DNA from: Alphaproteobacteria bacterium
GTDB lineage: Bacteria > Pseudomonadota > Alphaproteobacteria > Puniceispirillales > Puniceispirillaceae
DNA: 48,004 nucleotides
Direction: 5' to 3'
Assembly (NCBI GenBank): GCA_018666135.1
Contig: JABJAN010000109.1
Coordinates: 1 to 48,004, forward strand
Part shown: in pieces, positions 5,794 to 10,103 of the stretch
Layout of the letters: the number at the start of each line of letters is the position of its first letter
Position numbering within the stretch: position 1 is the stretch's first letter
Notes under the pieces: generated by a model
What the model was told of the DNA's origin: nothing
The model's input: the letters and a program-made list of their open reading frames with translations, nothing else
The model's database searches: none
Translations under genes and position numbers: made by a program

Positions 5794-6570
5794 ATGAATA
5801 CAGATAATCAAAACACCCCGCATCAGCCGTCTGATAAGCAAATTGATTTTGGCTTTCAATCCGTACCGCTAGGTCAGAAACAGAATTTAGTAAATGACGT
5901 ATTTGATTCCGTGGCATCATCATATGATATTATGAATGATTTGATGAGTGGCGGCGTGCACCGTTTATGGAAAGAAAATTTGCTAGATTGGATGGCACCT
6001 CGCCCTAGTCAAATTTTAGCTGATTTGGCAGGTGGGACAGGGGATGTTTCTCTTCGCTTTCTGAAAAGAGGCGGGAAATTTGCGCATGTGATTGATATCA
6101 ATGAGCAGATGCTTGCCGCAGGTAAAAAGCGTAAAATTATGAACCCCTATTCAGATAGACTTAATTGGATGGTAGGGGATGCACAATTAATTCCACTTGC
6201 AGACAATAGCGTAGACAGAGTTACCATCGCTTTTGGACTAAGAAACGTGCCTGATAGAATGGCTGCATTAAAGCAGATTAAGCGTATTTTGAAACCGGGC
6301 GGGCGGTTTTGTTGTCTTGAATTCTCACACGTAAATAATAAGCTATTATCTAAAATCTATGATGGATGGTCTTTTAACGTGCTGCCAAAGCTTGGTCAGC
6401 TTGTCGCTGGTGATGCCCAATCCTATCAATATTTAGTTGAATCTATTCGCAAGTTTCCCTCTCAAGCTGAACTTTCCACGATGATGGCTGATGCAGGATT
6501 AGTGCAAATAAAAGTACGGAGCTTATCTGGTGGCATAGCTGCAATCCATTCTGGGTGGAAAATAGATTAA
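5794..6570 (+). CDS. ubiE: Ubiquinone/menaquinone C-methyltransferase
   Basis: UbiE is the SAM-dependent methyltransferase that adds the ring C-methyl group in ubiquinone (and menaquinone) synthesis. The 258 residues include the UbiE signature YDIMNDLMSGGVHRLWK near residue 45, the SAM-binding LADLAGGTGDVS motif near 75, and AFGLRNVPDR with LKPGGRF after it. ATG 5794 has AGGACC about 8 bases upstream; an ATG four bases earlier leads at once to a stop. The gene ends in a TAATG overlap with ubiB, which implies translational coupling of the two ubiquinone genes. Confidence 0.97.
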   Translation: MNTDNQNTPHQPSDKQIDFGFQSVPLGQKQNLVNDVFDSVASSYDIMNDLMSGGVHRLWKENLLDWMAPRPSQILADLAGGTGDVSLRFLKRGGKFAHVIDINEQMLAAGKKRKIMNPYSDRLNWMVGDAQLIPLADNSVDRVTIAFGLRNVPDRMAALKQIKRILKPGGRFCCLEFSHVNNKLLSKIYDGWSFNVLPKLGQLVAGDAQSYQYLVESIRKFPSQAELSTMMADAGLVQIKVRSLSGGIAAIHSGWKID

Positions 6571-8081
6571 TGCAATATATCTTAGCCATTTTAAGATTGC
6601 CTTATATTGGGTTTGTACTCGGCAGAGCAGGCGTGCTTGGACATCTTGGCAGACTTGCGCCATTACCTGCTTGGCAAAAATCTCTTTTTAAATTTGTGAA
6701 TTTTCTAATAGCTGGCAGAAACAGTAAAAAGAATGCTGGTGAAGCATTGTGCATTGCTTTGCAAAGACTTGGACCTGTTTTTATAAAATTTGGTCAAGCC
6801 CTCTCAACACGGGCAGACCTGCTTGGACCAGATATTGCACGCGGATTAGTATCCCTTCAAGATAGTCTTCCTGCATTTTCATCTCGCCTTGCCAAACAGA
6901 TGATAGAAAAAGAAACAGGCAAACGAATAGACCAAATTTTTGTGTTTTTCGATGAAGTGCCAATCGCTGCTGCGTCTGTAGCACAAGTCCATAAGGCACA
7001 ACTTATTGATGGTCGTGATGTTGCTGTGAAGGTCCTGCGACCGCATATACACAAAAAAATGGCAACTGATATCGCCCTGTTTGGCGCACTCGCTAGAATT
7101 ATAGAGTTTTTGGCACCAAGAGTGCGCAGATTAAGATTGGTAGTGGCTGTTGAACAATTTAAGCAATTATCCGAAATTGAGCTAGATATGCGGATGGAAG
7201 CTGCTGCTGGTAGGAAATTACGCGAAAATCTGGCGGAAGATCACGGAATTCATATTCCTTGGGTTGAACAAAGTCTTACGAGCGAAAACATACTGGTTAG
7301 CGAATGGATTACTGGGCTTCGAATTGATGATGTGGATGGTCTTAAGGCTGCTGGTCATAATATTGATAAGGTAACAGAGCAAGCAGCAACAAGCTTTTTT
7401 AATCAAGTATTTAGAGATGGATACTTTCATGCCGATATGCACCCAGGGAATATCTTTATAACGTCAGATGGAACCCTTGTGCCAATAGATTTTGGGATTA
7501 TGGGCAATCTTCAATCCGAAGATAGGTTCTTTCTTGGCAGCCTTCTACTTGCTTTGCTAGAAAGAGATTATGACAAGGTAGCACTGTTACATCTCAATGC
7601 AGGAATGCTACCAGAAACAACCTCTCTTGCTTTGTTTGCACAAAATTTAAGGGCCCTTGTAGATCCTATCATGGATAAACCTATCGGCGAAATAGAACTA
7701 AGTGCAGCATTAGGGCAAATCTTACAAATTTCTTCACGGTTTGATATATTTGTGCAGCCGCAATTTAATTTATTACAGAAAACTATGGTGATGGCAGAGG
7801 GCGTTGCTCGCTCTCTTAACCCTCAGGCAAATATGTGGCATTTGGCCAAACCTTTGGCATCTGAGTGGATACAGGCACAAACCGGCTTCACATTGAAAAT
7901 ACAACAAATCCTAACCGATATAGAACATACCTTGCGAATATTACCTAAATTTCTTGCTGAATATGAGCACACACAAAAAGAAAAACAGAATCAGCTCAGA
8001 CCCAGAAAAATCAATTTTATTTCCAACTTAGGCTGGCTCATAGCAGGGATTGCAATAACCATTGCTTTCATTCAATTTTGA
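6570..8081 (+). CDS. ubiB: Atypical kinase UbiB, ubiquinone biosynthesis
   Basis: UbiB is a membrane-anchored protein-kinase-like ATPase of the ABC1/ADCK family needed for ubiquinone synthesis. Visible motifs are the family-specific KxGQ segment (FIKFGQALSTRADLLGPD), the alanine-rich nucleotide loop AAASVAQVH in place of the glycine loop, the DGYFHADMHPGN catalytic loop, and DFG within PIDFGIMG. The last about 20 residues form a hydrophobic tail (GWLIAGIAITIAFIQF), the expected C-terminal membrane anchor. I use ATG 6570, overlapping the ubiE stop by one base. A GTG at 6555 would add five residues. It sits 35 bp before coaBC. Confidence 0.96.
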   Translation: MQYILAILRLPYIGFVLGRAGVLGHLGRLAPLPAWQKSLFKFVNFLIAGRNSKKNAGEALCIALQRLGPVFIKFGQALSTRADLLGPDIARGLVSLQDSLPAFSSRLAKQMIEKETGKRIDQIFVFFDEVPIAAASVAQVHKAQLIDGRDVAVKVLRPHIHKKMATDIALFGALARIIEFLAPRVRRLRLVVAVEQFKQLSEIELDMRMEAAAGRKLRENLAEDHGIHIPWVEQSLTSENILVSEWITGLRIDDVDGLKAAGHNIDKVTEQAATSFFNQVFRDGYFHADMHPGNIFITSDGTLVPIDFGIMGNLQSEDRFFLGSLLLALLERDYDKVALLHLNAGMLPETTSLALFAQNLRALVDPIMDKPIGEIELSAALGQILQISSRFDIFVQPQFNLLQKTMVMAEGVARSLNPQANMWHLAKPLASEWIQAQTGFTLKIQQILTDIEHTLRILPKFLAEYEHTQKEKQNQLRPRKINFISNLGWLIAGIAITIAFIQF

Positions 8082-8097
8082 CGTTAAATTCATTTAT

Positions 8098-8110
8098 GTG
8101 AAGTGTTCAC
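8098..8110. promoter_or_regulatory. Short dyad upstream of coaBC
   Basis: A perfect 5-bp inverted repeat with a 3-base centre (GTGAA-GTG-TTCAC) ends 7-16 bases before the coaBC start codon, and a third GTGAA half-site follows at 8117-8121. It could be an operator for the helix-turn-helix carried by the CoaBC protein itself. It is short enough to be chance. Confidence 0.25.
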
Positions 8111-8116
8111 TAAATT

Positions 8117-9628
8117 GTGAAAATTATGAAATATCAAGAATCTTTAACTTATTTAATTGAAGCCTTTGGTGGTTCAGACAACCTACAAAAAATACTTGGC
8201 GTTGGTCCAAGTGCTTTAAGTAATTATCGGCGCCGAGAGCATCTTCCATTTAATCAAGCTCAGAAATTATCAGAGTTAGCACCAGATTATGGATTTAATC
8301 TTGATCCTTATAGCCTGAGAATTAGCCCTGTAAACAAGAAAGCTAAATTAGAAATATTACTTATAATTACGGGAGGAATTGCTGCCTATAAATCGTTAGA
8401 GCTGATTCGCAGATTACAGGATTTTGAATTTTCTGTTACTGCTGTAATGACAGAATCGGCACATCAATTTATCACTCCTTTATCTGTATCAGCCCTTACT
8501 GGCAATAAGGTATATTCTGATTTATTTGACTTAACAGACGAGCAGGAAATGGGTCATATACAGCTCGCTCGGAAAGCTGATTTAGTTTTGATAGCGCCAG
8601 CAACAGCAAATTTTATCAGCAAGATTGCACATGGATTAGCAGATGATCTTGCAAGTACCATTTGTCTTGTCACTGATGCTCCCATTTTTGTAGTACCTGC
8701 TATGAACCCGCATATGTGGGCAAATCTAGCCACACAAGAAAACTGTCGCATATTAAGGAATAGAGAAATTACCTTCATTGGACCAGATGATGGCGATACT
8801 GCTTGCGGGGAGAATGGGTCTGGGCGATTTGCCGAGACTTCATTCATTATTTCTATAATTCAGAAAAAACTGCTTAGTAACGAAAACCTGAACATTTTCT
8901 TCGAAAATAAAAGCCAACAGAAGCATCTGATTGCAAAACCACTCGCAGGAAAACGCATATTGATTACTGCTGGACCTACATTTGAGCCAATAGACCCCGT
9001 GCGATTTATCGGCAATCGCTCATCTGGCAAGCAAGGATATGCAATTGCAGCTGCCTGTGCACTTGCTGGGGCTGAAGTTTGCCTTGTTTCTGGACCTGTT
9101 AATCTGGCTGCGCCGTCAGATACTCGCCTTATTAATATAGAAACAGCGGAGCAAATGCAGCAAGCTTGCGCAAGTGAGCTGCAAGTGGCAAATGGGCTAC
9201 AAATAGATTGTGTGATTTGCGCAGCAGCAGTTTCAGACTGGCAAATGGTTGAACTAGGTGATTTAAAACTAAAAAAATCAGATTCAGGTCCTCCTCAGCT
9301 TCGGTTGAAAGAAACACCTGATATTTTATCTTGGGTTGGACATCACCCTTCTCGTCCAAGATTAGTAATAGGGTTTGCCGCAGAAACAGATACGCTAAAA
9401 CAGAACGCACAAAGCAAAAGAATGCGCAAGAATGCGGACTGGATTCTAGCTAATTCTGTTATTCAATCTGGCGAAACTGTATTTAATTCAGACAAGAATG
9501 AGATTTTATTTATATCCGAAACAAAAGAAGAAGCATGGGCAGCTGATAATAAACAAGCCATTGCCCAAAAACTAGTCGTCCATATCAGTGAATATTTTTC
9601 TTCCACCGACCTAGATAGAAATTGTTAA
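8117..9628 (+). CDS. coaBC: Bifunctional CoaBC with an extra N-terminal helix-turn-helix
   Basis: CoaBC joins cysteine to 4'-phosphopantothenate and decarboxylates the product, two steps of CoA synthesis. The CoaC flavoprotein part (about residues 78-255) shows His147 in [14 protein letters not shown] at 194-201 and the active-site Cys230 in ACGENGSG. The CoaB part (about 278 onward) shows Asn300 in [15 protein letters not shown] and LKLKK. Residues 1-75 are extra: an FGG-(helix)[14 protein letters not shown] pattern at 17-40 that looks like a YdaS/Cro-type DNA-binding helix-turn-helix. There is no internal Met near the usual CoaC start, so the fusion is read continuously. The start is GTG 8117 or ATG 8126; neither has a good ribosome site. 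Confidence 0.93.
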
Positions 9629-9638
9629 AAGAGGCCAT

Positions 9639-10103
9639 ATGAATACGCCCTTATATATTGATATTGAAATTTTGGAACATGCAAAATCCCTTCCTATTCC
9701 TGAATATCAGACGATGGGTTCTGCTGGAATGGATTTATATGCTGCATTAGCACAGCCTTTAGAATTAAGCCCCTTTGAGAGATGCCTAATTCCAACAGGA
9801 TTGAAAATTGCGCTGCCAGTTGGAACAGAGGCTCAGGTTCGACCTCGCTCTGGGTTAGCCTTAAAATATGGCGTAACTGTGCTAAACTCGCCTGGAACAA
9901 TAGATAGTGACTATCGAGGTGAAATTAAAATTTTACTCATAAATTTAGGCACAGACTCTTTTAGAATCGAACATGGCTTGCGAGTCGCTCAATTAATTAT
10001 TGCGCCTGTTCAACACGCCATTTTAATGCCAAAGAAAAATCTTGATAATACCAAACGAGGTGACGGTGGTTTTGGTTCCACAGGTCAAAAGAGTGACTCA
10101 TAA
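9639..10103 (+). CDS. dut: dUTP diphosphatase
   Basis: Dut hydrolyses dUTP to dUMP, keeping uracil out of DNA and feeding thymidylate synthesis. The 154-residue trimeric-type enzyme shows all five motifs in order: GSAGMDL, RPRSGLA, a [10 protein letters not shown] segment with the catalytic Asp, RVAQLI, and the C-terminal [10 protein letters not shown] arm that closes on the phosphates. ATG 9639 has AGAGG just upstream. It begins 10 bp after coaBC, and its stop TAA is immediately followed by the ATG of the next gene. The coaBC-dut pairing is widespread in proteobacteria. Confidence 0.97.

Follow-up and report, generated by a model that had tools for sequence, protein, structure and literature searches.

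A Cro-type helix-turn-helix fused to the CoA-synthesis enzyme CoaBC in the SAR116 order, with a putative operator upstream of its gene

The window, i.e. the whole stretch of DNA analysed (48,004 nucleotides), carries on its + strand the genes ubiE, ubiB, HTH-coaBC, dut and a ThiF-family gene, in that order. The ABC1 kinase-like gene ubiB (6555..8081, +) is followed by the fusion gene (8126..9628, +), encoding 500 aa from an ATG at 8126, and by the dUTPase gene dut (9639..10103, +), which begins after a 10-bp gap and is likely co-transcribed with coaBC. The frame is uninterrupted from 8117 to 9628 (+) and would give 503 aa when counted from an alternative GTG start at 8117, but the ATG appears the better start because the similarity to every relative starts at this codon and not at the GTG. 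Within the protein, the CoaC domain (phosphopantothenoylcysteine decarboxylase; 8351..8875, +; approximately residues 76-250) matches Pfam Flavoprotein with an E value of 2.3e-32 and can be aligned to the mycobacterial structure 6TGV, and the CoaB domain (phosphopantothenate-cysteine ligase; 8945..9595, +; approximately residues 275-490) matches Pfam DFP with an E value of 2.5e-63. The CoaBC part is thus full length, with the flavoprotein domain preceding the ligase domain; conserved CoaBC sequence blocks are present and the TIGR00521 profile is matched at E 1e-121 (406.7 bits against a cut-off of 219.7). The gene product is a CoaBC enzyme, with its activity predicted from these domains. The preliminary description had noted the lack of an internal Met in this frame. 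The window gene contains no in-frame ATG, GTG or TTG between the helix-turn-helix (HTH) and CoaC; a start codon of some kind occurs at this place in 57 of 67 relatives, being an ATG in 25.

The segment preceding CoaC consists of a Cro-type HTH domain (residues 1-55; 8126..8290, +), followed by a short β-hairpin and a variable linker (residues 56-75; 8291..8350, +) which is poorly conserved, shows a higher pN/pS and differs in length among relatives. Profile searches of the N-terminal 75 residues against Pfam and NCBIfam returned matches to HTH families only. AlphaFold2, supplied with an alignment of 13 homologues, produced a confident helical domain with a β-hairpin (mean pLDDT 91.3) and placed the HTH at residues 17-37, with a first helix at approximately residues 17-24 (8174-8197, +) and a recognition helix at approximately residues 28-37 (8207-8236, +). 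The full-length model (mean pLDDT 83) showed the same domain ahead of CoaBC, its least confident parts being the linker around residues 70-72 and the stretch joining CoaC to CoaB. The nearest solved structure was the Xfaso1 Cro protein (3bd1), both by sequence profile (E 5.5e-7) and by fold, for which Foldseek gave a probability of 1.00 and a TM of 0.64 but an E value of 0.03. Invariant GG, L, S, N and P columns run through the HTH of 67 fusions. A chance resemblance to an HTH was ruled out by the AlphaFold2 model, the profile match to 3bd1 and these conserved residues; a match to the TALE-like BurrH was discounted, as it comprised no significant single stretch.

The family best matched by the HTH alone is NCBIfam NF046037, 'carph-isopro' (E 9e-7). 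Since the window HTH scores 29 bits against a curated cut-off of 38, which is reached by 6 of 46 relatives, the domain is described here as related to this family and is not filed as a member of it. Further profile matches, to P22_Cro, Xre-like HTH and YdaS, were weak. The preliminary description had spoken of a YdaS/Cro-type HTH; the family closest to the domain is carph-isopro/Cro and not YdaS. The entry for NF046037 gives no function; its name may be short for carbamoyl-phosphate and isopropylmalate, after enzymes of these pathways, and if so NCBI curators had noticed the fusions.

An HTH in frame with CoaC was found in 108 of 136 genomes of the SAR116 (Puniceispirillales-like) order, spanning four families (f1-f4) and 20 genera, and one more MAG (L043) also carries the fusion. 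SAR116 has been described as comprising four families (PMC8547437), in agreement with this distribution. Most of the remaining genomes of the order, which are mostly incomplete, gave no match at all, and in one (G126) only a 35-residue fragment was matched. Loss of the HTH was ruled out in G058 and G060, whose coaBC genes are both cut by contig ends; the only other HTH-less CoaBC in the order is a second copy in G008 (contig C79), a bin with 7% contamination, so that no assessable loss was seen among the order genomes. A search of 289 genomes from across the class, all outside SAR116, returned no CoaBC fusion of this kind, and we propose that it arose in the ancestor of SAR116. Within the order, the NF046037 HTH occurs once per genome, in CoaBC, with the exception of a short stray in G022. 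Within the genus, pN/pS was 0.17 in the HTH and 0.15 in CoaC, as compared to 0.30 both in CoaB and in the stretch following the HTH, indicating that the HTH is under purifying selection and constrained to the same extent as the CoaC core. A sequencing or frameshift artefact was ruled out, since many independent genomes carry this fusion with its frame open. The earlier claim of an HTH ahead of CoaBC is thus upheld by the open frame, the HTH-only profile matches, the structural model and conservation across four families.

Upstream of the fusion gene, a triple operator of the form GTGAA-N3-TTCAC-N6-GTGAA (8098..8121, +; GTGAAGTGTTCACTAAATTGTGAA) lies directly before the start codon and is conserved. 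The dyad pointed out in the preliminary description is real and corresponds to the first two half-sites, GTGAAGTGTTCAC at 8098-8110, to which a GTGAA is added at 8117-8121. A possible fourth, degenerate half-site, TTCAT (8089..8093, +), was read from the sequences of the genus, where most congeners have TTCA[AT]. A weak candidate -35 element (8078..8083, +; TTGACG/TTTACA) overlaps the end of ubiB and has a similar hexamer in congeners, but a consensus scan that included this candidate gave no clear promoter at the operator. Among relatives, the flanking sequence diverges while the half-sites stay.

Half-sites were counted over the 100 bp preceding the start codon, with expectations derived from dinucleotide shuffles. 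GTGAA/TTCAC occurred 143 times upstream of 68 fusion genes against 12.7 expected, and 27 times against 15.1 expected, i.e. near background, upstream of 106 HTH-less alphaproteobacterial coaBC genes; these upstream sequences are related by descent and the counts are not independent, so the HTH-less controls and the changes of geometry between families provide the safer argument. By hand tally, each of the 16 genera in f1-f3 is represented by one or more members that carry at least two half-sites. In an unguided 6-mer count against mononucleotide shuffles, TGTGAA was the top word in 39 of 40 regions in f1 and in 13 of 13 in f2 and f3 together, and not in controls. The arrangements favoured in f1 are GTGAA-N3-TTCAC and TTCAC-N6-GTGAA, and that favoured in f2 and f3 is TTCAC-N5-GTGAA, whereas in genus g2 the half-site is directly repeated three times with a 10-bp period, typically at -40/-30/-20, which places the sites on one helix face and supports binding by protein subunits along one face of the DNA. 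Genus g4, of the same family as the window (L195, L197, L198, L030), keeps HTH-CoaBC with weak or altered upstream half-sites, and the array is likewise weak or unrecognised in part of f4. The recognition helix of f4 is IKPSA(I/V)SNW as compared to VGPSA(L/I/V)SNY in the other families, and the half-site is ATGAA/TTCAT instead of GTGAA/TTCAC. Recognition helix and half-site thus appear to change together, but this is a weaker point because in f4 the first half-site shares bases with the ubiB stop codon and no clear array is seen in the smaller genera. An enrichment of CCTGAA in f4 was ruled out as an operator, being ubiB coding sequence.

Across 46 genomes searched, the triple operator was found without mismatch only at coaBC; allowing one mismatch gave three strays elsewhere, and a reversed control pattern gave two matches. 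Single TTCAC-N6-GTGAA and GTGAA-N3-TTCAC palindromes occur elsewhere in the genus, and those inspected lay in coding sequence, bar one where no ORF was called; a wider regulon is therefore not supported.

Together, these data suggest that CoaBC with a Cro-type HTH is a single-target self-repressing enzyme, coaBC being autoregulated through the upstream array, a reading we consider likely; in general terms, the enzyme very probably regulates its own synthesis. Assembled HTH-CoaBC would bind the TGTGAA/TTCACA half-site array between ubiB and coaBC, before the start codon, and would repress transcription of its own gene and probably also of dut and the ThiF-family gene. The solved homologue of CoaBC is dodecameric, and several HTHs could therefore engage the three to four half-sites together. 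Repression would rise with the enzyme level and may be tuned by CoaBC ligands such as CoA thioesters, the latter being a guess at the metabolite signal. The analysis itself shows a predicted HTH fold, the conservation of domain and operator, and the dedication of each to CoaBC; that the protein binds DNA, that it represses and does not activate, and that ligands control it are inferred. The preliminary description had envisaged an enzyme that could regulate its own operon or act as a trigger enzyme, for which the predicted fold, conservation across the order and an operator that is conserved and confined to coaBC all argue: a catalytic and a predicted DNA-binding domain are conserved in one chain, and comparative genomics places a putative operator at a target gene of the enzyme's own pathway, coaBC itself. 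Its suggestion that the protein regulates its own operon holds for coaBC and the genes after it but not for the whole ubiE operon, as the operator lies in the ubiB-coaBC gap. Counted against self-repression were the position of the CoaC core inside the dodecamer in 6TGV, which might leave an N-terminal HTH unexposed, the weak arrays in g4 and part of f4, the overlap with the ubiB stop in f4, the negative promoter scan, and the upstream palindromes of several other HTH fusions, which are not significant alone.

The half-sites TGTGAA/TTCACA resemble those of CRP/FNR-type regulators (TGTGA-N6-TCACA), and the array could belong to another regulator, for example one of this type, leaving the fused HTH as a relic or as an oligomerisation device only. 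This is improbable, as the spacing is N3, N5, N6 or that of 10-bp direct repeats and not the fixed spacing of CRP, the triple site is confined to coaBC, unlike the sites of a global regulator, and the array accompanies the fusion and is absent from HTH-less alphaproteobacterial coaBC genes; in addition, the core residues of the HTH are conserved and the half-site differs where the fused HTH differs. The inverted repeats, located roughly 4-40 nt before the start codon, could also form short RNA hairpins controlling translation, with or without binding of CoaBC. We regard an RNA element as very improbable: no hairpin is possible with the 10-bp-phased direct repeats of g2, the half-site remains constant between families while its orientation and spacing vary, and the fused domain has a Cro-type DNA-binding fold.

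Autoregulation by the fused HTH might instead take the form of activation, or extend to further genes in trans. The sign of regulation is not readable from sequence, and in some cases the operator stands 20-40 bp upstream of the start; in the window's genus, however, the array extends as far as the start codon, a placement that would favour repression, and control in trans is at odds with the lack of further perfect triple sites and with the location of most other examined palindromes inside coding sequence. Little probability is given to either variant, and repression of coaBC by its own product is the preferred reading.

In a class-wide search with the family, this HTH also turned up at the N-terminus of HisZ, ArgH, ArgB, CarA, PyrB, the NAD(P)HX epimerase/dehydratase NnrE, the pyruvate dehydrogenase E1 alpha subunit PdhA, a crotonyl-CoA reductase-like enzyme and TorD-like proteins. 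Pfam confirmed ArgH, the NAD(P)HX enzyme, CarA, PyrB, HisZ and the zinc-dehydrogenase-type enzyme, the other partners being named by reading the sequence. HTH-HisZ (ATP phosphoribosyltransferase regulatory subunit) occurs in two other alphaproteobacterial families (L209, L214, L217, L224, L227, L228, L300-L302), one of which has TTCATA/TATGAA palindromes twice upstream; the other enzyme fusions, ArgH, NnrE and CarA among them, are at L272, L294, L316, L317, L305, L237, L303, L230 and L311. Several have long inverted repeats before the gene, and one CarA has TGGGAA-N5-TTCCCA twice. In support of self-repression by HTH-CoaBC, palindromes also lie upstream of two independent fusions of this HTH, HTH-HisZ (ATTCATATTATATGAAT) and HTH-ArgH (AACGTATTAAATACGTTTAATACGTT); shuffle p values were 0.005 to 0.02 for ArgH, NnrE, PyrB and TorD and 0.03-0.1 for HisZ of family f53, and the others were not significant. 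The most frequent partner class-wide is a Mic60/HemX-like membrane protein, found in many Alphaproteobacteria (L223, L231-L236, L268-L271, L274-L293), its gene sometimes following hemD or being in frame with that gene. An inverted repeat with arms of 14 bp stands before a stand-alone 68-residue gene of this HTH family (L315; G316:C1:2961800-2962900). TACGT/ACGTA words stand before HTH genes with another recognition helix, of the TTVQGWK type (L286, L295, L233, L296, L236), and TACGT was counted 21 times against 6.2 expected, in 10 of 36 loci, which partly supports, and weakly overall, a general TACGT half-site for such HTHs. It is conceivable, and on balance we lean slightly towards it, that Alphaproteobacteria repeatedly fused one Cro-type HTH to biosynthetic enzymes (CoaBC, HisZ, CarA, ArgH, ArgB, PyrB, NAD(P)HX repair and pyruvate dehydrogenase E1), each with a private operator, as a class of single-target self-repressing enzymes, of which CoaBC would be the best documented example.

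SAR116 is a major group of ocean bacteria, and for streamlined genomes a 60-residue domain and a 24-bp operator would represent a cheap added gene control, using a module that seems to be reused on other biosynthetic enzymes. Both elements are delimited with single-base precision, which makes the proposal directly testable. Among known systems, NF046037 is similar in that its domain also stands N-terminally on long proteins, including enzymes, in other Alphaproteobacteria, but most CoaBC-fused members fall below its curated cut-off. The phage Cro proteins (Xfaso1 Cro, P22 Cro) include the closest solved structures but are stand-alone phage repressors, whereas the HTH described here is a domain of a chromosomal enzyme. 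NadR is an enzyme with a DNA-binding repressor role. As an enzyme and putative repressor of its own pathway, HTH-CoaBC resembles the trigger enzymes PutA and NadR, whose DNA-binding folds, enzymes and pathways differ from its own. PutA also represses transcription of its own pathway (PMC6978683). BirA, the biotin ligase that represses the bio genes, is likewise a cofactor-linked enzyme with an N-terminal DNA-binding HTH; this domain is present in only a subset of BirA proteins, which control biotin synthesis genes and are autoregulated only in some groups (PMC5343134), whereas HTH-CoaBC has a Cro-type HTH, belongs to CoA synthesis and apparently has a single, self-directed target. A literature search, with most subscription journals outside its scope, returned no paper on HTH-CoaBC, its private operator or the HTH domain; DNA-binding enzymes such as BirA, PutA and NadR are known, and CoaBC as one of them, with a Cro-type domain and a private operator, is new with respect to that search. 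The control of bacterial CoA synthesis has so far been described mostly as enzyme inhibition. The CoaBC of Mycobacterium smegmatis (6TGV) is the same enzyme over residues 73-495 (E 2e-62) but is without the HTH; mycobacterial CoaBC is a dodecamer, and its known control is direct inhibition by CoA and acyl-CoA thioesters (PMC7794376).
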